Assembly: GCA_021810505.1 (NCBI GenBank)
Contig: JAJZIR010000006.1
Coordinates: 1-64,000, forward strand
DNA: 64,000 nt
Direction: 5' to 3'
DNA from: a bacterium
Lineage (GTDB): Bacteria > Deinococcota > Deinococci > Deinococcales > Deinococcaceae
Numbering within the stretch: the first letter of the stretch is position 1; each line of letters opens with the position of its first letter. The notes beneath the pieces are model-generated. The model made no database searches. It was not told where the DNA came from and saw nothing but the letters and a program-made list of their open reading frames with translations. Shown here piece by piece: positions 11,603 to 19,900 of the stretch. The position numbers were made by a program, and so were the translations under genes.

Positions 11603-12391
11603 TCAGCCCTGGCGGCCAGCCCAGCTGCGCATGGCCTGGGCCAGGTAACTCGCCAATCCGGGTTGGAGCGCTTCGAAGCGGGCCACGAAGTCGGGGTGCT
11701 GGGTGTAGAGGTCGGCTAGAGCGGCGTAGGCTTTCGGGCTGCACTCCTGAGCCCAGCCTTTTTGTACCCAGGCCCGGTGGCGCTGGATCAGGGAATCTAG
11801 CTCGGGCGAATCGGCCGAGATCCCCCGGCGCAGCGCGCCGGCCAGACCTTCCTCGACGGAGCGGATCTCGGCCAGCGCCCAGGTCCGCTCCGCATCTCCC
11901 ATCGCCGCAATCCTCTGGCTCCCAGCGGCGACCTGCTCGCCGACTTCGGGGCCGTAGCGTTCGGCGAGCCAAGCCTCGTACTCGGCCTGCTTGGCCGGTG
12001 AGACCACACCGGAATAGAGCTCTTCGTCCTTCACGTCCTCTCCTCTCAGCCTGGCCAGGGTGCGGTCGGTGGCCAGGACCAGCGCCAGGTAGCGGTCCAG
12101 TTGTCCGAGCAGCTGGGCGCGCTGCCGTTCCAAAGCTGCCTGCAGGTCGCCGCCCTCCGCGTCCAGCAAGGAGGCGATCTGGCCCAAGGGGAAGCCGAGC
12201 TCCCGGTAGATCAGAATCCGCTGCAACCTGAGCAGCTCGGCCTCGGCGTAGTAGCGGTAACCGTTCTCGCCGGTGAAAGACGGCGCGAGCAGGCCGATCT
12301 GGTGGTAGTGGTGCAGGGTGCGCACCGATATCCCGGCCAAGGCCGCCAGTCGGGCCACGGTGTAGACCTGCTCGGGCGACTCCTTCCGCAC
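11603..12391 (-). CDS. MerR-family transcriptional regulator with TipAS-like ligand domain
   Basis: A 262-aa activator-type regulator. The N-terminal winged helix reads YTVARLAALAGISVRTLHHYHQIGLL (cited here as RTLHHYHQIGLL) with the MerR wing NGYRYY, followed by a long coiled-coil dimer helix (about 75-120). The C-terminal ~140 residues (SPAKQAEYEAWLAERYG onward) resemble the TipAS antibiotic-recognition domain of TipAL/Mta, which binds thiopeptides and other amphipathic compounds. The GTG 12391 start sits 6 nt from a TACCCT -10. The promoter has the 19-bp spacer and dyad that define MerR-type autoregulation. Divergent from the K+ channel gene. Confidence 0.87.
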   Translation of the reverse strand: MRKESPEQVYTVARLAALAGISVRTLHHYHQIGLLAPSFTGENGYRYYAEAELLRLQRILIYRELGFPLGQIASLLDAEGGDLQAALERQRAQLLGQLDRYLALVLATDRTLARLRGEDVKDEELYSGVVSPAKQAEYEAWLAERYGPEVGEQVAAGSQRIAAMGDAERTWALAEIRSVEEGLAGALRRGISADSPELDSLIQRHRAWVQKGWAQECSPKAYAALADLYTQHPDFVARFEALQPGLASYLAQAMRSWAGRQG

Positions 12392-12455: not shown

Positions 12456-13613
12456 GTGCCCAAGGCCACCACACCGCCCAGGAGCCTGCTGCGGCGTAGC
12501 CTCCCACAAGCTCCGGTCGCGCTGGCCATGCTGCTCACCGGGCTGGCTAATCTTTACACCGGGATCTCCCTGCCGCAGCTGAGCTTGGGGGGGCTGACCG
12601 TCCACGGGCTGCAATCCTTCTCGCACCAGCAGTCGGTGGCCATCTTGGGCCACGGCGCCCAGGTGCTCTTCGCCGTGGCCAGCATCCTGGTCGGCTTCGC
12701 CCTGCTGTGGCGCTTCCAGGTCGCCTGGACCTACGCCGTCCTGTTGCTGGTGATCACCATCGGCATCCACCTGTTCCGGGGGGAATACGGCTTGTCGCTG
12801 CTGATCACCGTGGCCAGCCTGGCCGCTCTGCTGGTCTGGCGCTCGACCTTCTCGCGCAAGACCCTGATCGGGGGCTATCTGATCTCGCTGGCGGGAGTGG
12901 TCAGCGTACTGGTCTACGGGACCCTGGGCACCCTGCTGCTCGGTCGGGACTTCCACCCCAAGGTCTCCAGCTTGGGCACCGCACTCTACTTCACCATCGT
13001 GACGCTCTCGACCGTAGGGTACGGCGACATCACGCCGGCCAATCAGACCAGCAGGATCTTCGTCATCACCCTGATCGTCCTGGGAATCTCCATCTTCACC
13101 ACCGTCTTGCTCAGCAGCCTGGGACCCTCCATCACCCTGGAGATGGCCAAGCTGTTCAGCCCCCAGAGGAGGCGGATTATGCTCAATCAGCACGTCATCC
13201 TGGTCGGTTCCGGTGCCCTGGCTGCCAGCACCGCCTTGGAGCTCAAAGCCCGCCAGCTGGAGTTGGTCCAGGTCATCGCTCCCGAGAAGGCGCCGCCCCT
13301 CCCCGAGGAACCCTACGTGCAGGGAGACCCCAGCACCGAGGAGACCCTGCGCAAGGCCGGTGCCCAGAGAGCCCGGCTGCTGATCGCTGCCCGGGAGGAC
13401 GACAACGAGAACGCCTTCATCACCCTGGCAGCCAAAAACCTGGCGCCGGGACTCAAAGTTTTGGCCATCGCCAGCTCAGCGCGCTCCATGCGCATCCTGA
13501 AGTTGGCCGGGGCCGACCTGGTCTTCTCGCCGGTGGCCTTGGGCAGCCGCCTGCTGGCCAATTTAGTGCAGGGAGAGGAGCTCCCGGCCGATTTTCAGGA
13601 CCTGCTGACCTGA
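12456..13613 (+). CDS. Potassium channel with C-terminal RCK/TrkA-N domain
   Basis: A 385-aa membrane protein with about six to eight hydrophobic segments in residues 20-215. The pore loop carries the K+ selectivity filter TVGYGD (near residue 187), followed by the inner helix. The cytoplasmic C-terminal half begins NQHVILVGSGALAASTALEL, a Rossmann-type RCK domain like that of E. coli Kch. The extra N-terminal membrane helices before the pore also resemble Kch/voltage-sensor-like channels. It lacks a DxD-type NAD motif at the expected place, so ligand gating is uncertain. Starts at GTG 12456 with a leaderless -10; divergent from the TipA-like regulator. Confidence 0.86.
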   Translation: MPKATTPPRSLLRRSLPQAPVALAMLLTGLANLYTGISLPQLSLGGLTVHGLQSFSHQQSVAILGHGAQVLFAVASILVGFALLWRFQVAWTYAVLLLVITIGIHLFRGEYGLSLLITVASLAALLVWRSTFSRKTLIGGYLISLAGVVSVLVYGTLGTLLLGRDFHPKVSSLGTALYFTIVTLSTVGYGDITPANQTSRIFVITLIVLGISIFTTVLLSSLGPSITLEMAKLFSPQRRRIMLNQHVILVGSGALAASTALELKARQLELVQVIAPEKAPPLPEEPYVQGDPSTEETLRKAGAQRARLLIAAREDDNENAFITLAAKNLAPGLKVLAIASSARSMRILKLAGADLVFSPVALGSRLLANLVQGEELPADFQDLLT

Positions 13614-13719: not shown

Positions 13720-14292
13720 TCACACCCTCCTGGGCGGCGAGCTGATGGTGAGCAGCAGGGCGGGGGCCGCTCCCAGGTTGGAGACGCGGTGGGCCAGGGC
13801 GGCCGGATACACCGCAGCGTCCCCCGGAGCCAGGGCGATCTCGAGCTGACCCTCCACAGCCAGCTCGACCTGACCCTCTAGGAGGTAGAGGAAGTCCTCG
13901 CCGGCGTGTCCGACCGGGTTGGATTGGGACGCTCCGGGGGCGATGGTGAGCAGGACCGGCTGGATCCTAGCTGAGAGGTCCGGATCCAATAGCCTGGCCG
14001 TCACCCCTTCGGCCAGCGGCGAGACAGCCGCCTGCGACGCCCGCAGCAGCCGCACCAGCTGCCCGCCCCGGCTGCTGGGGAGGAGGTCGGCAGCGTCCAG
14101 TCCGACCGCCCGGGCGATCTTGCCGAGCATGGTGGCCGACACGTCGGTCCCGCCGCGCTCCAGGGTGCTCAGAAACGAGGCCGAACAGGGAACCCTGGCG
14201 GCCAAGTCGCGCAGAGATAGGCCGCGGGCCTGGCGCAGGGCTCTCAGGCGCAGCCCCAGCCGGGGATCCAAGGACCCTGGCACCTCAGGCAC
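13720..14292 (-). CDS. XRE-family regulator with C-terminal cupin domain
   Basis: A 190-aa transcription factor with an N-terminal helix-turn-helix (about 12-66; LRALRQARGLSLRDLAARV ... SASFLSTLERG) and a C-terminal cupin barrel (about 105-185; GHAGEDFLYLLEGQVELAVEG). This class (PuuR/SutR-like) often senses a small catabolic substrate through the cupin and represses a neighbouring operon. It follows the M24 hydrolase gene with an 8-bp overlap (GTG 14292), so the two are cotranscribed. The divergent operon across 15461-15554 is its most likely additional target. The ligand is unknown. Confidence 0.88.
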   Translation of the reverse strand: MPEVPGSLDPRLGLRLRALRQARGLSLRDLAARVPCSASFLSTLERGGTDVSATMLGKIARAVGLDAADLLPSSRGGQLVRLLRASQAAVSPLAEGVTARLLDPDLSARIQPVLLTIAPGASQSNPVGHAGEDFLYLLEGQVELAVEGQLEIALAPGDAAVYPAALAHRVSNLGAAPALLLTISSPPRRV

Positions 14293-15460
14293 CGCCCACT
14301 CGGGGGATCGGCCAGAGCTCTTCCTGCAGCGGGCTGAGGTAGCGCGTCTGCTCCTCTCCGACCAAGACGCTCTCTTCGACGATCATGCTGGGGCCGGGAG
14401 AGAGCAGCACGGTAGGCTCTAGGGCGTAGATCTCTCCGGCCAGAACCGTTCCCTCGACCAGGGGGCTACGCCCCGGGGGGCCCAAGATGGTCCCGCCATC
14501 GTGGACGCGGCGGCCGATTTGGTGGCCGGTACTGTGGCGGATCTCCGGCCAGCCGTCTGCGATCAAAGACTGCCTGGCCGCCGCGTCCACCACCCAGCCG
14601 GGAACCCCGGGGCGCAGCGCCGACCTAGCGGCTTCAGTCGCCCGGCGGATAGAGCTGAACATCCGCTGCAGCTCGGCCGGGGGCTGCTCGGCACCCTCCG
14701 GCAGGGCGTAGAAGGTCCTGGCCAGGTCCGAGCGAAACCCGTGCACCACCAAGGAGGTATCCAGGATCAGCAGGTCACCAGCTTCCAGCTGCGTCTCGCC
14801 GGGAGCGCGGTGGCTCATGCCGGCCCGGCTGATCAGCACCAGCGGTCCCCCGAAATCGCCGGCATCGATCTGGTAGCCGAGTTGGGAAGCGAGGCGGTTC
14901 ACCAAGTCCTGGATCTCCCGCTCGCGCATCCCCTGGCGCAGCTGGGGCAAGAGAGCCGCATAGAGCTGAGCGGTCTGCGCGGTCGCCGCTTGGATCCTAG
15001 CCAGCTCGGCAGCGACTTTGACCGAGCGGAGCCGGCGCAGGATGTTTTCGCTGGAAGCCAGCAGCGGAGCTGGCCGCAGATCCATCGCCAGAGCCTCCAG
15101 CCGGTCGCGCAGCCCGGCGGTGAGGCCATCGCAGAGGGCATCCGCCGGGCTGACGTCGAGCAGGATGCGCTGGGGCGCGAGCCGGCCGAGGAGCGCCTGG
15201 AGGTCGGCATAGAGGTTGAAGCGGTAGGTCTGAATGGATAAACCGCAGAGCCCCTCCAGGTGACCTGCGTCGATCCCAGACACCAAGGCGCCCGCCTCCC
15301 CCACAGTCAACCAGAGGGCCAGCTCGCCGACCAGCTGCCGGCCGAGCAGCAGAGAGACCGCCGGGTCAGATCCTTCCCTGGAGAGGATCAGCCACAGATC
15401 CCCAGGGGTGAGCGAGCTTCTAGCCTGTGCGAGTTTTTCTGCAGGTAGCGTGTCGTCCAC
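14285..15460 (-). CDS. M24-family metallohydrolase (Xaa-Pro dipeptidase / ectoine hydrolase-like)
   Basis: A pita-bread-fold hydrolase of 391 aa. The N-terminal ~150 residues form the creatinase-like domain; the rest is the catalytic domain. All five dinuclear-metal ligands of the metallopeptidase branch can be seen: Asp/Asp in LDTSLVVHGFRSDLARTF, His in STGHQIGRRVH, Glu in YALEPTV and Glu in IVEESVLV. This argues against true creatinase, which lacks the Asp ligands. GTG 15460 has AAAGGA 7 nt upstream; an in-frame ATG at 15502 overlaps the promoter. It is cotranscribed with the XRE-cupin regulator and divergent from aminotransferase/oxidase genes, suggesting hydrolysis of an imported N-acyl or dipeptide-like compound. 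Confidence 0.83.
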   Translation of the reverse strand: MDDTLPAEKLAQARSSLTPGDLWLILSREGSDPAVSLLLGRQLVGELALWLTVGEAGALVSGIDAGHLEGLCGLSIQTYRFNLYADLQALLGRLAPQRILLDVSPADALCDGLTAGLRDRLEALAMDLRPAPLLASSENILRRLRSVKVAAELARIQAATAQTAQLYAALLPQLRQGMREREIQDLVNRLASQLGYQIDAGDFGGPLVLISRAGMSHRAPGETQLEAGDLLILDTSLVVHGFRSDLARTFYALPEGAEQPPAELQRMFSSIRRATEAARSALRPGVPGWVVDAAARQSLIADGWPEIRHSTGHQIGRRVHDGGTILGPPGRSPLVEGTVLAGEIYALEPTVLLSPGPSMIVEESVLVGEEQTRYLSPLQEELWPIPRVGGA

Positions 15461-15554
15461 TAGGAGGTCCTTTCGCGGGAATTTGTTCTTTATATCGTAC
15501 ATTGTTCAGTATATTGACAATGCCTCCTAGCACAGCTTAGACTGCCTCATCCTT
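15461..15554. promoter_or_regulatory. Divergent promoter region with overlapping -35 boxes and AT-rich dyad
   Basis: This is an AT-rich island in GC-rich surroundings. On the plus strand TTGACA (15514-15519), an 18-bp spacer and TAGACT (15538-15543) lead to the aminotransferase ATG. On the minus strand TTGTCA (15515-15520) uses nearly the same bases as its -35, with GATATA (15491-15496) 18 bp on. Around 15492-15518 the sequence ATATCGTAC ... GTATATTGAC is an imperfect dyad, a plausible operator for the XRE-cupin regulator. Sharing the -35 means the two operons should compete or be controlled together. Confidence 0.65.
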
Positions 15555-16691
15555 ATGGACGACCTGAGCCTGCTGGAATTCCGAAGGCATTTTCCAGAAG
15601 CGGAAGGGCGGGTACACCTGGCCAGCTGCTCCAAGGGTCCGCTCTCCGACGTGGTAGAGGCGGCCGCGCTGCAGTACCTGCGCAGCTGGAGAGAGCTCGG
15701 TGCACCCTGGGAGCTCTGGAGCGCCGCTTGGGAGGAGAGCCGGGCGCGGATGGCCGGGCGCCTGGGGGTGCTCTCCAGCCAGGTCGCCCTAGCTCCCAGC
15801 GCCAGCAGCGCTCTGGGCTGGATCCTGGCCAGCCGCCCAGCCGGCAGCAAGATGGTGATCGACGCGCGCAGCTTTCCCAGCGCCCTGCACCTGGGCGACG
15901 CCCAACGGGCCCGCTGCCAGGTGATCTACAGCGAGGACCTACCCGGGGACGATGATGACCAGCGGCTGGCCGAGGCGGTCGCCCGCACCGGGCCAGGGGA
16001 CCTGCTCACTCTCCCAGAAGTCTGCTTCCGGACCGGTGCGCTGCTGGACTTAGCCGGCGCGGTCGCGGAGGTCCACGCCCGGGGCGGCGCGGTCCTATTA
16101 GACGGCTACCAGGCCTGCGGGGTAGTGCCCAGCCAGGTGGCCGAGCTGGGCGTCGACGGCTACGTAACCGGCAGCCACAAGTACTTGTTGGGCAGCGAGG
16201 GGCTGGCCTTCCTGTACTGGAAGGACAGGGATTTGGCCCCATCCAGCCCGGGTTGGATGGCCGCCGCCGACCCGCAGGCGATGGCTAAGCCGCGCCGGCT
16301 GGCTGAGGGGGCCAGGCGCTTCGAGCAGGGGACCCCGACGGTCAGCGCCTGCTACGCTTTCAACGCTGCCGACCAGCTGCTCAGCGCCCTGGATCCGCAG
16401 CTGCTCTCGGCGCATTGCCGGGAATTGGTGCGCGGTCTTCGGGAGGCGTGCAGCGAGCTGGGCCTGCTCACGCTGACGCCGCCGGGCCGGGAGGCGGCAA
16501 TGTTGGCGGTGGCCTCTCCGGACCCGCAGAGAGCCTGCCAGGAACTGGCCGGCGCCGGCCTGATCGCCAGCCCCCGGGGGGGCGCCGTCCGCTTTGCCTT
16601 TCACGGCTTACACACCGCGGGTGACCTGGACCGGCTGCGCAGCTGGCTGTCCGCGCACCCGTCGCTCTTCGAGGTGCGGCGTGCCGCCTGA
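15555..16691 (+). CDS. Class V aminotransferase-fold PLP enzyme
   Basis: A 378-aa fold-type I PLP enzyme of the class V group (cysteine desulfurase, kynureninase, isopenicillin epimerase-like). The Schiff-base lysine is Lys209 in TGSHKYLLG and the PLP-nitrogen Asp is Asp183 in LLDGYQACG. The substrate terminal region contains RFEQGTPTVSACYAF, which is common in kynureninase/epimerase-like members. No catalytic Cys loop typical of desulfurases is obvious. It heads the divergent operon and its end overlaps the FAD oxidase gene by 11 bp. The reaction (transamination, beta-elimination or epimerisation) cannot be fixed from sequence. Confidence 0.82.
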   Translation: MDDLSLLEFRRHFPEAEGRVHLASCSKGPLSDVVEAAALQYLRSWRELGAPWELWSAAWEESRARMAGRLGVLSSQVALAPSASSALGWILASRPAGSKMVIDARSFPSALHLGDAQRARCQVIYSEDLPGDDDDQRLAEAVARTGPGDLLTLPEVCFRTGALLDLAGAVAEVHARGGAVLLDGYQACGVVPSQVAELGVDGYVTGSHKYLLGSEGLAFLYWKDRDLAPSSPGWMAAADPQAMAKPRRLAEGARRFEQGTPTVSACYAFNAADQLLSALDPQLLSAHCRELVRGLREACSELGLLTLTPPGREAAMLAVASPDPQRACQELAGAGLIASPRGGAVRFAFHGLHTAGDLDRLRSWLSAHPSLFEVRRAA

Positions 16692-17784
16692 GCGGATCAC
16701 CGTCGTCGGGGCCGGCATCGTCGGGGCCGCGGTGGCCGACCGGCTGAGCGCGCTCGGCGCCGACGTCACCGTGATCGACCCGGCGATCGGCCAGGGCATC
16801 ACCGCGCTCTGCCCGGGCGGGGTGCGACACCAGTGGAGCAACCGCGAGACCGCCGAGCTGGTAGCGCGCAGCCTGCCCTTCTTCGAGGGCGTCTCCGAAC
16901 TGGACCCCGGGCTGCACTTCGACCGCTGCGGCTACCTGTTCGTCACCCACCGGGCAGAGGGCGTCCAAGCGCTGTCCGAGCTGGTGGAGCAGCAGCGCGC
17001 TCTGGGTATTCCGGCCGAGCTGCTGGACGGCCCGCAGGCCAAGAAGCTGGTCCCCAGGCTGCGGAGCAGCGTGGTGGCGGCCAGCTACGGGCCCAGCGAC
17101 GGGTTCGTCAGCGATCCTATCCGGCTCAGCCAAGCCCTGATCCAGCGCGCCCGCTCTAGGGGAACCCGCTGGCTGCCCCAGCAGGTCACCTCCATCCAGC
17201 TGCGCGGCGAGGCGGTCTGCGGAGTCGAGTTGGCAGGGGGGGCGCAGCTGCCCTGCGACCAGCTGGTGGTGGCGGCCGGCCACAGCAATCAGGAGCTGCT
17301 GGGCCAGGTCGGCGTGCAGCTGCCGTTGCGCCGCGAGGAGCGCAGGCTGCACTACCTCAAGAGGACGCCGCCGGGCTTCTGCCGCCCGCTGGTCGCCTCC
17401 TTAGAACAGCGTTGGGCTGGGAAGCAGTTGGGGGGCGCCTTCTACCACAGCTACCTGGGGACCCCTGTGGGGAGCGAGGACTTTCTGGAGCTGAGCCGCC
17501 AGAGGGGAGCAGCGGTCCTGGACGGGCTGGAAGATCTGGAGCACGACCGGGTGGTGCAGGGACAGTACAGCTCGACCCCTGACCACCAGGCCATCGTGGA
17601 CCGGGTCGGTCCCAGCGGGCTGACCGTCTGCGCCGGCCTGAGCGGCCACGGCCTGATGATCGCCCCAGCCGTCGCTGAGCTGGTCAGCCAGCTGCTCTCC
17701 GGGGGAGCGTCCCCCCTGCTGCAGGCCCTGAGCCTGCAGCGCTTCGCAGCGCCCGCGGCCAGGGACGAGCGGGCGGTGATCTGA
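16681..17784 (+). CDS. FAD-dependent amine/amino-acid oxidoreductase (DadA/glycine oxidase family)
   Basis: A 367-aa D-amino acid/sarcosine/glycine oxidase-type flavoenzyme. The N-terminal Rossmann motif is VVGAGIVGAAVADRL with the acidic end VIDP. The motif GVRHQWSN and the C-terminal GLSGHGLMIAPAVAELV are typical of the DAO family, where the C-terminal glycine-rich segment contacts the flavin. The start GTG 16681 overlaps the aminotransferase gene by 11 bp; the following gene overlaps its stop by 1 bp. It probably oxidises a secondary or primary amine freed from the substrate of this locus. No transmembrane segment is visible. Confidence 0.85.
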   Translation: MPPERITVVGAGIVGAAVADRLSALGADVTVIDPAIGQGITALCPGGVRHQWSNRETAELVARSLPFFEGVSELDPGLHFDRCGYLFVTHRAEGVQALSELVEQQRALGIPAELLDGPQAKKLVPRLRSSVVAASYGPSDGFVSDPIRLSQALIQRARSRGTRWLPQQVTSIQLRGEAVCGVELAGGAQLPCDQLVVAAGHSNQELLGQVGVQLPLRREERRLHYLKRTPPGFCRPLVASLEQRWAGKQLGGAFYHSYLGTPVGSEDFLELSRQRGAAVLDGLEDLEHDRVVQGQYSSTPDHQAIVDRVGPSGLTVCAGLSGHGLMIAPAVAELVSQLLSGGASPLLQALSLQRFAAPAARDERAVI

Positions 17785-18245
17785 TGCTGCAGCTGAATTT
17801 CCCTGGGGTCGAGCTGCGCGCCGAGCTGACTCAGGCGCTAGCCCCCGAGAGCTGCGCGCTGCTGGCTAGAGCTCTGGAAAGGCCACTCTCCTGCACCGCC
17901 CGCCACGCCATCTGGACTGGACCGGAGATCTCCATGCCGCTGCCCACCTGCCAGCAAACTGAGCCCCTAGCCCAGCACCCCGCCGAAGCCTTGAGCGTCT
18001 TCCCCCAGCCGGGCGACCTGCTGCTCACGGCGCTCCCTCCCCACGCCTGGCCGGGGCAGGCCGGGGCGCTGATCGACCTGGGCCTGTTCTACGGACCCCA
18101 GGGGCGCTGTTTCTTCCCGCTAGGCTGGCTGGCTGGAACTTTAGTGGCCAGGCTTCTCCCAGAGGACCTGGCGGCGGCGGCCGAGCTGGGGTCCGACCTT
18201 CTGCGCCGCGGGGAGCAGCTGGCCGAACTGCGCTGGTTCCCCTGA
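17784..18245 (+). CDS. Probable DUF3830-type cyclophilin-like protein
   Basis: A 153-aa soluble protein of beta-rich character. The motif order is an early APESCALLARAL helix, then RHAIWTGPEISMPLP, FPQPGDLLLTA and FYGPQGRCFFPLGWLAGTLVARL. I recall this order from DUF3830, a family with a cyclophilin-like barrel found beside amino-acid and hydantoin-type catabolic genes; I could not confirm it by search. It overlaps the FAD oxidase stop by 1 bp, so it belongs to the same operon. It has no signal peptide. An enzymatic role, perhaps isomerase or lyase, is possible but not shown. Confidence 0.6.
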   Translation: MLQLNFPGVELRAELTQALAPESCALLARALERPLSCTARHAIWTGPEISMPLPTCQQTEPLAQHPAEALSVFPQPGDLLLTALPPHAWPGQAGALIDLGLFYGPQGRCFFPLGWLAGTLVARLLPEDLAAAAELGSDLLRRGEQLAELRWFP

Positions 18246-18262
18246 ACCCCTAAGGAGAGACG

Positions 18263-19900
18263 ATGAGGCGTACCTGGATGCTTGTAGCCGGCCTGATCGG
18301 CCTGAGCCCCTTCGCTCTGGCCAGCAAGACGCTGGTGGTCGCCCTGCCGCCAGCCACCAAGATCACCTACCTGCAGCCCTTAGCCCCCGGGGACGTCTAC
18401 ACCTTTTACGACAGCCAGGCTTCGCTGCTGCTCTACCGCCCGCTCCTGTGGATAGACCGCAACATTCAGATCGACTACGCCCGCTCCATCGCCAGCTCGG
18501 TGCGCAGCCAAGACGGGAAGCACTACCTGGTCACGCTGCACCGCAGGTGGCGCTGGTCAGACGGGAAACCGGTCACTGCCCAAGACGTAGCTTTTGCGCT
18601 GGATCTGCTGCGGAGCGTCCCCGCGTCCAACGTGGCTGCGGATGCCAATTGGGGGATCGGCGGCATGCCCCAAGACATCCGCTCGGTCAAGGTGCTCGGG
18701 GAGTGGAAACTGGAGATCACCCTGAACGGCCGCTATAACACCAAGTGGTTCCTGTACAACGGCCTGGCCCAGATCGTCCCGCTACCTCAGCAGGCTTGGG
18801 ACCGTTACCCTGGCCAGCCGGCCAAGACGCTGGCTTACCTGCAGCGCGAGGGGGACAATCTCAACTTCTTCCGCGGCAGCCCGGTGGATGGGCCCTTCCG
18901 AGTGGGGCGCTTTCGGGCGGGGCAGAGCTACCGCTTTCTGGCCAACCCGGAGTACGCCGGCAGGAAGCCGGATTACCAGCAGCTGGAGCTGGCCTACTTC
19001 ACCAATTCGGACGCCGAATTCAATGCGCTCAGAGCCGGGGAGGTCCAGGTAGGGTACCTGCCCGCCCACCTCTACGGCCAGCAGGGCAGCTTGCCCAGCT
19101 ACCGCCTGATCGCCGCGCCGCAATGGTCGGTCAACTACCTCTATCTCAACTTCAAAGCCTCCGGCCCCGGTAAGGCTCTGCGGCTGGCAGCGGTACGCCA
19201 GGCCCTGCAGATGGCGGTCGACCAGCCGGCCATCCTCAGGGTCATCCTGCACGGTCAGGGCAATCTGGCCTACGGTCCAGTCCCCTACCGGCCCTCTACC
19301 TATCTGTCCCCCTACCTGCTGACCCACGTCCCTTACCCTTATGACCCCGCGGCCGGCCGGCGGCTGCTGGAAAAGGCCGGCTTCCGCGGGCGAGGCGGGG
19401 TGATGCAGAGAGGCCGGCTAAGCCTGCGCTTCACCCTGCAGTACGCCAGTGGGATCCAGAGTATTCAGCTCCAGGACGAGCTGATCGCTGCGGCCGCGGC
19501 GCGCGAGGGGATCCGGATCCAGCTCAAGCCGGTCCCCTTCGACACGCTGCTGGGCGAGCTGGGTTCGCCCAAGGGCTGGAGCATGGTCGATTACGGGGGC
19601 TGGTCCTACCAGCCCGACTTCTACCCCACCAGCTACGGCCTGTTCGGTTCCAAGGGCGGGTCCAACCTCTCCGGTTACGCCGACCCAGCGGTGGATCGCT
19701 TGGCCGAGGCGACCCACCGCTTCGGCAGCCCTGCCCAGGAGCAGGGAGCGCTCAACCGCTACCAGAACGCCTTGGCTGAGAAATTACCGGTAATCTGGCT
19801 CCCGGCTAGCGCGCAGTTGAACGAGGTGAGCGAGGCGGTCTCGGGATTCCACTACAACCCCACGGGGAACTGGTCACCGGAGCGCTGGCAGCTGCGCTGA
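18263..19900 (+). CDS. ABC transporter substrate-binding protein, family 5 (peptide/opine type)
   Basis: A 545-aa periplasmic binding protein of the DppA/OppA/NikA class with a Sec signal peptide of about 20 residues (basic start, hydrophobic core, cleavage near ALAS) and no lipobox. Typical segments are the early LYRPLLWIDRN, the RRWRWSDGKPVTAQDVAFALDLL region (cited as WSDGKPVTAQDVAFAL), and AVRQALQMAVDQPAIL. The RBS AAGGAG precedes ATG 18263. It ends the operon, and no permease or ATPase genes follow, so it must borrow components encoded elsewhere. Its place beside an M24 hydrolase and an amine oxidase suggests capture of a small peptide or conjugated amino acid. Confidence 0.9.
   Translation: MRRTWMLVAGLIGLSPFALASKTLVVALPPATKITYLQPLAPGDVYTFYDSQASLLLYRPLLWIDRNIQIDYARSIASSVRSQDGKHYLVTLHRRWRWSDGKPVTAQDVAFALDLLRSVPASNVAADANWGIGGMPQDIRSVKVLGEWKLEITLNGRYNTKWFLYNGLAQIVPLPQQAWDRYPGQPAKTLAYLQREGDNLNFFRGSPVDGPFRVGRFRAGQSYRFLANPEYAGRKPDYQQLELAYFTNSDAEFNALRAGEVQVGYLPAHLYGQQGSLPSYRLIAAPQWSVNYLYLNFKASGPGKALRLAAVRQALQMAVDQPAILRVILHGQGNLAYGPVPYRPSTYLSPYLLTHVPYPYDPAAGRRLLEKAGFRGRGGVMQRGRLSLRFTLQYASGIQSIQLQDELIAAAAAREGIRIQLKPVPFDTLLGELGSPKGWSMVDYGGWSYQPDFYPTSYGLFGSKGGSNLSGYADPAVDRLAEATHRFGSPAQEQGALNRYQNALAEKLPVIWLPASAQLNEVSEAVSGFHYNPTGNWSPERWQLR

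Follow-up and report, generated by a model that had tools for sequence, protein, structure and literature searches.

A conserved divergent gene cluster in Deinococcaceae links DUF3830 to DAO-family flavoenzymes in a possible catabolic module for a peptide-borne amino acid

Gene organization of the locus

We analyzed a 64,000-nucleotide stretch of a Deinococcaceae contig (assembly GCA_021810505.1, contig JAJZIR010000006.1, positions 1 to 64,000; hereafter the window), in which six genes face each other across one divergent control region. An XRE-cupin regulator and an M24 metallohydrolase lie on the minus strand, while a class V pyridoxal phosphate (PLP) enzyme, a DAO-family flavin adenine dinucleotide (FAD) oxidase, a DUF3830 protein and a family 5 substrate-binding protein (SBP5) lie on the plus strand (Table 1). 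These are the genes and families that an initial annotation had placed here, and each of the six open reading frames scored above its Pfam cut-off. No NCBIfam model reached its curated cut-off for any of the six proteins, and therefore no function can be assigned to them automatically.

The genes had been described as two tight operons with overlaps of 1–11 bp. This holds for XRE and M24 (8 bp, 14285–14292), PLP and DAO (11 bp, 16681–16691) and DAO and DUF3830 (1 bp, 17784), but not for DUF3830 and SBP5, which lie 17 bp apart, with an AAGGAG ribosome-binding site before SBP5. The M24 frame is indeed open from ATG 15502 (405 aa), the start given earlier, but GTG 15460 is probably the likelier start, judging from the AAGGA upstream of it and from a resulting length that matches those of relatives, which start at about this position. 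With that start the divergent gap would measure ∼94 bp instead of 52.

Table 1. Coordinates and assignments of the features of the locus
Feature	Position	Strand	Size and start	Assignment and closest relatives
XRE-cupin regulator	13720..14292	-	190 aa, GTG start	HTH_31 + Cupin_2; 50% identity to XRE of Deinococcus cluster
M24 metallohydrolase	14285..15460	-	391 aa, probable start GTG 15460	Peptidase_M24; 49-51% identity to M24a of Deinococcus/G001
Putative operator and -35, GTTCAGTATATTGAC (motif GTTCARTANNTTGAC)	15504..15518	+		Motif common to Deinococcus loci
Sigma-70-like promoter of plus operon	15514..15543	+		TTGACA 15514-15519, TAGACT 15538-15543; near-leaderless
Class V fold-type I PLP enzyme	15555..16691	+	378 aa	Aminotran_5; 43-48% identity to Deinococcota orthologs
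DAO-family FAD oxidase/dehydrogenase	16681..17784	+	367 aa, GTG start	DAO 155.8 bits; best solved relative 1y56_B, E 6e-36
DUF3830 protein	17784..18245	+	153 aa	PF12903, 91.8 bits vs cut-off 26; AlphaFold2 model pLDDT 88.5
Family 5 oligopeptide-type binding protein (SBP5)	18263..19900	+	545 aa, signal-peptide-like N-terminus	SBP_bac_5

The cluster is conserved in Deinococcus plasmids and in a same-family genome

Homologous loci were found by tblastn in plasmid records. The same genes lie on three Deinococcus plasmids (D. psychrotolerans EHF33_RS19020-19070, Deinococcus sp. D7000 and Deinococcus sp. KNUC1210), where the annotated cluster is fuller, with an M29 aminopeptidase, XRE, two permeases, SBP5 and an M24 enzyme on one strand and two M24 enzymes, PLP, FAD oxidase and DUF3830 on the facing strand. 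A 3.8 Mb genome from the window's own family (G001) holds a copy with a gene order identical to that of the plasmids. These relatives by themselves also make a Deinococcota host probable. The permeases, the M29 enzyme and the two additional M24 enzymes are not visible from the window alone.

Identity to the window proteins is 43–44% for PLP (47–48% in G001 and KNUC1210), 44–49% for DAO and 44–47% for DUF3830, with the values for XRE and M24 given in Table 1. The binding protein is only 26% identical to the SBP of the Deinococcus cluster and is not its ortholog, and since it is the only non-orthologous member, the conserved core consists of five genes (XRE, M24, PLP, DAO and DUF3830). Thus the binding protein, which had been counted as part of the system, retains its family assignment but is a lineage-specific paralog outside this core. 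The families co-occur in all three Deinococcus plasmids and in G001, and the locus is a real, conserved gene cluster, more than a set of chance neighbors. A limited literature search found no described pathway for the cluster, in agreement with the initial annotation, which knew of none with exactly this gene set.

The divergent gap carries a motif specific to the locus

The control region contains GTTCARTANNTTGAC, in which a half-site is fused to a −35 box. The Deinococcus plasmids and G001 have this motif at both promoters of their divergent gaps, with a degenerate plus-side copy in D. psychrotolerans. All five loci compared thus have the motif at the divergent gap; its window version is GTTCAGTATATTGAC (Table 1), and in the Deinococcus plasmids the plus-operon copies run on into a TTGAACNNNGTTCAA palindrome. 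GTTCARTANNTTGAC has a single occurrence in the 2.3 Mb host genome, in the window's divergent gap, and two in G001, at the two divergent promoters of the cluster copy, versus 0 occurrences of a reversed-pattern control; the R in GTTCARTANNTTGAC was chosen with the window in view, and a G at the same place is independently present in G001. For the plus operon, the gap contains a single sigma-70-like promoter, TTGACA-18-TAGACT (1 found versus 0.2 expected), which overlaps the motif site, and the PLP gene is nearly leaderless.

These features, together with the conservation in relatives, uphold the earlier view that the genes form a catabolic module around one divergent control region. Judging from the sequence, the cluster is most likely self-regulated through its shared divergent promoter with a probable operator, and the XRE-cupin protein may be what binds at the GTTCARTANNTTGAC site seen there.

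DUF3830 models resemble Pictet-Spenglerases

The window DUF3830 protein was modeled with AlphaFold2 from 23 sequences (predicted local distance difference test score, pLDDT, in Table 1), and a second model was led by a Cypionkella sequence. When both models were compared with the PDB using Foldseek, the best match was 3kop, the DUF3830 family's own structure, followed by McbB and KslB. Matches to McbB and KslB had E values of 1e-6 to 1e-3, versus ∼6e-3 to 2e-2 for true cyclophilins, and a DUF3830 sequence profile searched against PDB sequences placed McbB second (E 0.0054). In the weak profile alignment with McbB, H41 and G46 are common to both proteins. The catalytic residues of McbB, which we take to be R72, H87 and E97, fall on approximately position 69, D98 and R108 of DUF3830 in this weak alignment, which was extended by four residues to reach R108. 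McbB couples tryptophan with an aldehyde in a Pictet-Spengler reaction, and in the KslB reaction the partner of tryptophan is alpha-ketoglutarate (PMC7024544; PMC12513458). DUF3830 has a fold in common with these Pictet-Spenglerases, its mechanism probably differs, and we do not claim that it belongs among them. Among the open-access papers searched, none mentioned DUF3830 or PF12903 by name.

DUF3830 of the window clade is linked to DAO genes

A DAO gene lies within 5 kb of the window-clade DUF3830 gene in 29 of 31 distinct loci, compared with 2 of 14 other loci, each at least 8 kb and retrieved for reasons other than a DAO gene. Because related genomes do not count as independent, the sample effectively shrinks to about four contexts. 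These are Deinococcota; Caballeronia, with a PLP enzyme and a transporter of the branched-chain type; rhizobia and rhodobacters, with GntR, TIGR04076 and an aldo/keto reductase; and sphingomonads, with a TonB-receptor-sized open reading frame, S9, DUF885 and SBF. The HAIWTGPE motif is missing from three diverged DUF3830 genes, none of which has a DAO neighbor in the stretches read. Two PLP-DAO clusters in which no DUF3830 was seen, one haloarchaeal and one from Marinibacterium, contain RidA, which suggests an imine-clearing role common to DUF3830 and RidA. What is new here is this DAO linkage of the clade across four contexts and, in the models, a match of DUF3830 to McbB and KslB that is far better than its match to cyclophilins.

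Several neighborhoods are conserved clusters in their own right. Rhodobacters and rhizobia (loci L022, L024, L026, L027, L036, L061 and L062) share an uncharacterized cluster of a branched-chain type ATP-binding cassette (ABC) transporter, GntR, DUF3830, TIGR04076, an aldo/keto reductase and a binding protein, usually with a DAO oxidase. The sphingomonad-type cluster (L028–L035 and L037–L044) comprises an S9/DPP-IV peptidase, DUF885, DUF3830, an SBF symporter, a DAO oxidase and a second DUF885, with the families checked by Pfam in L030 and the gene positions seen in most of the other loci. The diverged DUF3830 genes (L052 9536–10018, L053 1391–1828 and L054 854–1282) adjoin an aldo/keto reductase-like gene, and haloarchaeal DAO relatives (L072 and L073) adjoin ornithine cyclodeaminase-family genes, in L072 also an S9 peptidase.

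Peptidases of the M29, M32, S9/DPP-IV and DUF885 families recur in the neighborhoods of related clusters and point to peptides as substrates. The single small amino-acid conjugate first proposed as the substrate is only one option.

Enzymes and binding protein of the cluster

The M24 enzyme keeps all five metal ligands (D248, D259, H327, E362 and E376, numbered from ATG 15502) and should thus be competent as a metallohydrolase; among solved structures, proline dipeptidases are its best relatives. Creatinase has lost its metal ligands and is ruled out as an identity for this enzyme, as had been argued earlier. The ectoine hydrolase pathway (DoeA/EutD) does not fit either, because no M20/AstE-type deacetylase gene (DoeB/EutE) is found among the six genes or in the Deinococcus clusters.

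In the PLP enzyme K209, D183 and R346 are invariant in 11 relatives and, going by the fold, presumably represent the lysine, the ring aspartate and the carboxylate-type arginine. Its best solved relatives are kynureninase and desulfurases. As a kynureninase it can be dismissed, since it carries Aminotran_5 only, without the KYNU_C domain, and scores 27.9 bits versus 246.4 for the equivalog; the host has a separate kynureninase with a cyclase at contig C11. A cysteine desulfurase of the SufS/CsdA type is excluded by 49 bits versus 475 and by the lack of a conserved Cys in the alignment. Plasmid PLP homologs of Streptomyces, Bacillus and Priestia lie in unrelated contexts.

For the DAO enzyme the closest solved structure is 1y56_B (Table 1), which we take to be PH1364, the catalytic subunit of L-proline dehydrogenase. 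PH1363/PH1364 has been named as L-proline dehydrogenase (PMC4364671). A canonical proline dehydrogenase is encoded elsewhere in the host genome, so proline is not an obvious substrate of the DAO enzyme, and a simple L-proline pathway is weakened. ThiO (93.1 versus a curated equivalog cut-off of 250.8) and N-methyl-Trp oxidase (67.5 versus 257) were both rejected.

Including SBP5, the host genome encodes 12 paralogous family 5 binding proteins. The others are 44–56% identical to the window copy, and the genes are scattered over the window and contigs C3, C7, C8, C11, C18, C21, C22, C25 and C26. By coordinates, most have no OppB-type permease within 20 kb, while two directly precede OppB/OppC on C25, which suggests that many host binding proteins feed shared permeases.

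A proposed pathway and its alternatives

We lean modestly toward reading the locus as a catabolic module with its own local regulation, dedicated to an unusual amino acid that arrives in small peptides, most likely through uptake of the peptide-borne amino acid, hydrolysis and oxidation with an imine intermediate. The XRE-cupin protein would sense the substrate and control both divergent operons via GTTCARTANNTTGAC at the −35 region, and SBP5 would capture the peptide and pass it to permeases encoded elsewhere, such as OppB/OppC on contig C25. The M24 enzyme, a dinuclear metallopeptidase by its ligands, could then cut the peptide in the cytoplasm, and the DAO flavoenzyme could oxidize the resulting amino or imino acid to an imine, which DUF3830, given its fold and linkage, may hydrolyze, isomerize or ring-open. 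The PLP enzyme would process a primary amino acid of the same substrate.

This module is favored because the ordered cluster is kept in the three Deinococcus plasmids and in G001; because the motif is unique to the locus in two genomes and lies at the divergent gap in five loci; because of the intact M24 ligands, the DAO-DUF3830 linkage, the McbB/KslB fold match and the recurring peptidases; and because RidA accompanies PLP and DAO in loci in which no DUF3830 was seen. Several observations weigh against it. Peptides are not universal substrates, since the versions in Caballeronia and rhizobia lack M24 and rely on transporters of the branched-chain amino-acid type. The second domain of McbB is absent in DUF3830, and the catalytic Glu is apparently not kept. 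The DAO partners of DUF3830 come from several subfamilies, with 15–21% identity between the window DAO and the others, so the chemistry may differ between clusters. The replacement of DUF3830 by RidA rests on two loci.

Degradation of prolyl peptides, with M24 as a prolidase, DAO as an L- or D-proline dehydrogenase and DUF3830 as a prolyl isomerase-like helper, would account for the best solved relatives of both DAO (1y56_B, taken to be the proline dehydrogenase subunit) and M24 (proline dipeptidases), for the recurring DPP-IV/S9 and M24 peptidases and for the ornithine cyclodeaminase homologs beside haloarchaeal DAO relatives. We nevertheless consider it unlikely, given the canonical proline dehydrogenase elsewhere in the genome, a secondary amine in proline on which PLP enzymes do not act, and a DUF3830 fold nearer to McbB/KslB than to cyclophilins. 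The PLP enzyme could instead be an isopenicillin-N-epimerase-like racemase that converts the L to the D form, which DAO would oxidize while DUF3830 (RidA elsewhere) clears the imine. PLP and DAO-type genes do occur together in Deinococcota, Caballeronia, haloarchaea and Marinibacterium, with RidA in the latter two and an enzyme annotated as DadA in Marinibacterium, and K209 and the carboxylate-binding-type R346 are conserved; yet the best solved relatives of the PLP enzyme are kynureninase and desulfurases and not an epimerase, in a comparison that held no characterized racemase, and the PLP gene is missing from most DUF3830-DAO loci outside Deinococcota, which makes this route rather unlikely. 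No relevant paper on combinations of an epimerase and a D-amino acid dehydrogenase was found among the open-access papers searched.

Breakdown of a cyclic opine or conjugate is more doubtful. Here DUF3830 would act on a cyclic conjugate of an amino acid and a keto acid, either cleaving it in a reverse Pictet-Spengler-type reaction or hydrolyzing the matching iminium, and DAO would oxidize the ring amine. This would be in keeping with the fold match of DUF3830 to McbB/KslB, the name cucumopine synthase on the McbB entry, the frequent pairing of DUF3830 with a DAO oxidase, and the inclusion among family 5 binding proteins of AgaA (6hlx), which we take to be an opine-type binder. The catalytic residues seem different, however, no opine is known in these hosts, and a simple opine would need no peptidases. 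Finally, that two unrelated short operons merely share a common promoter region is very improbable: the non-orthologous SBP5 across lineages would fit such chance neighbors, but XRE-M24-PLP-DAO-DUF3830 is kept across genera, the motif is unique to the locus, and cluster and motif recur together in unrelated contexts, an outcome that speaks against chance.

A more far-reaching reading is that DUF3830 of this clade forms a new class of stand-alone imine/iminium enzyme with a Pictet-Spenglerase fold, a partner of flavin amine oxidases across several phyla and here part of a pathway in Deinococcota for a cyclic or N-substituted amino acid that derives from a peptide; we make this proposal tentatively. 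Catabolic operons are common, but this cluster gives a functionally uncharacterized domain a precise fold relative, a frequent partner enzyme class and a single-locus regulator with a probable operator. The fold of ring-forming, imine-handling enzymes provides a testable idea for the family, and both the function of DUF3830 and the substrate are directly testable in culturable Deinococcus.

Among genes near the locus, a K+ channel with a TrkA-N domain (window 12456–13613) adjoins it, and same-family genomes hold weak homologs only. A MerR regulator with a TipAS drug-recognition domain (window 11603–12391) is also close by. In G001, purK and the cluster copy are on different contigs.

Comparison with known systems

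The uncharacterized Deinococcus plasmid cluster resembles the window cluster in its XRE, M24, PLP, DAO and DUF3830 orthologs, its divergent layout and its motif. Unlike the window cluster, it also contains the M29 enzyme, two permeases and two additional M24 enzymes; its SBP5 is a different one, and its regulator is placed past the SBP and permease genes. A haloarchaeal plasmid cluster in Natronosalvus halobius (L067) combines relatives of M24 (31%), DAO (29%) and PLP (29%) with an ABC substrate-binding protein, but differs in having RidA, M32, a prolyl oligopeptidase and extra M24 enzymes, and DUF3830 was not seen in it. The creatinase and DoeA/EutD pathways have the M24 fold in common with the window enzyme, which in contrast has intact ligands and no deacetylase or sarcosine-pathway partner. 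The L-proline dehydrogenase structure 1y56_B (PH1364), although the closest solved relative of the window DAO, has a partner subunit that the window cluster lacks.

For DUF3830, the uncharacterized Arthrobacter structure 3kop has the same Pfam family and fold (TM-score 0.83) but lacks the TGPE motif of the window's clade, the aligned residues being ARNE. The bacterial Pictet-Spenglerases McbB (3x27, whose molecule name is cucumopine synthase) and KslB have the core fold in common with DUF3830, with a TM-score of ∼0.7 over the query. Their chains are 273–335 aa versus 153 aa, their second (C-terminal) domain is absent in DUF3830, and the catalytic Glu of McbB is apparently an Arg in DUF3830 by the weak alignment.

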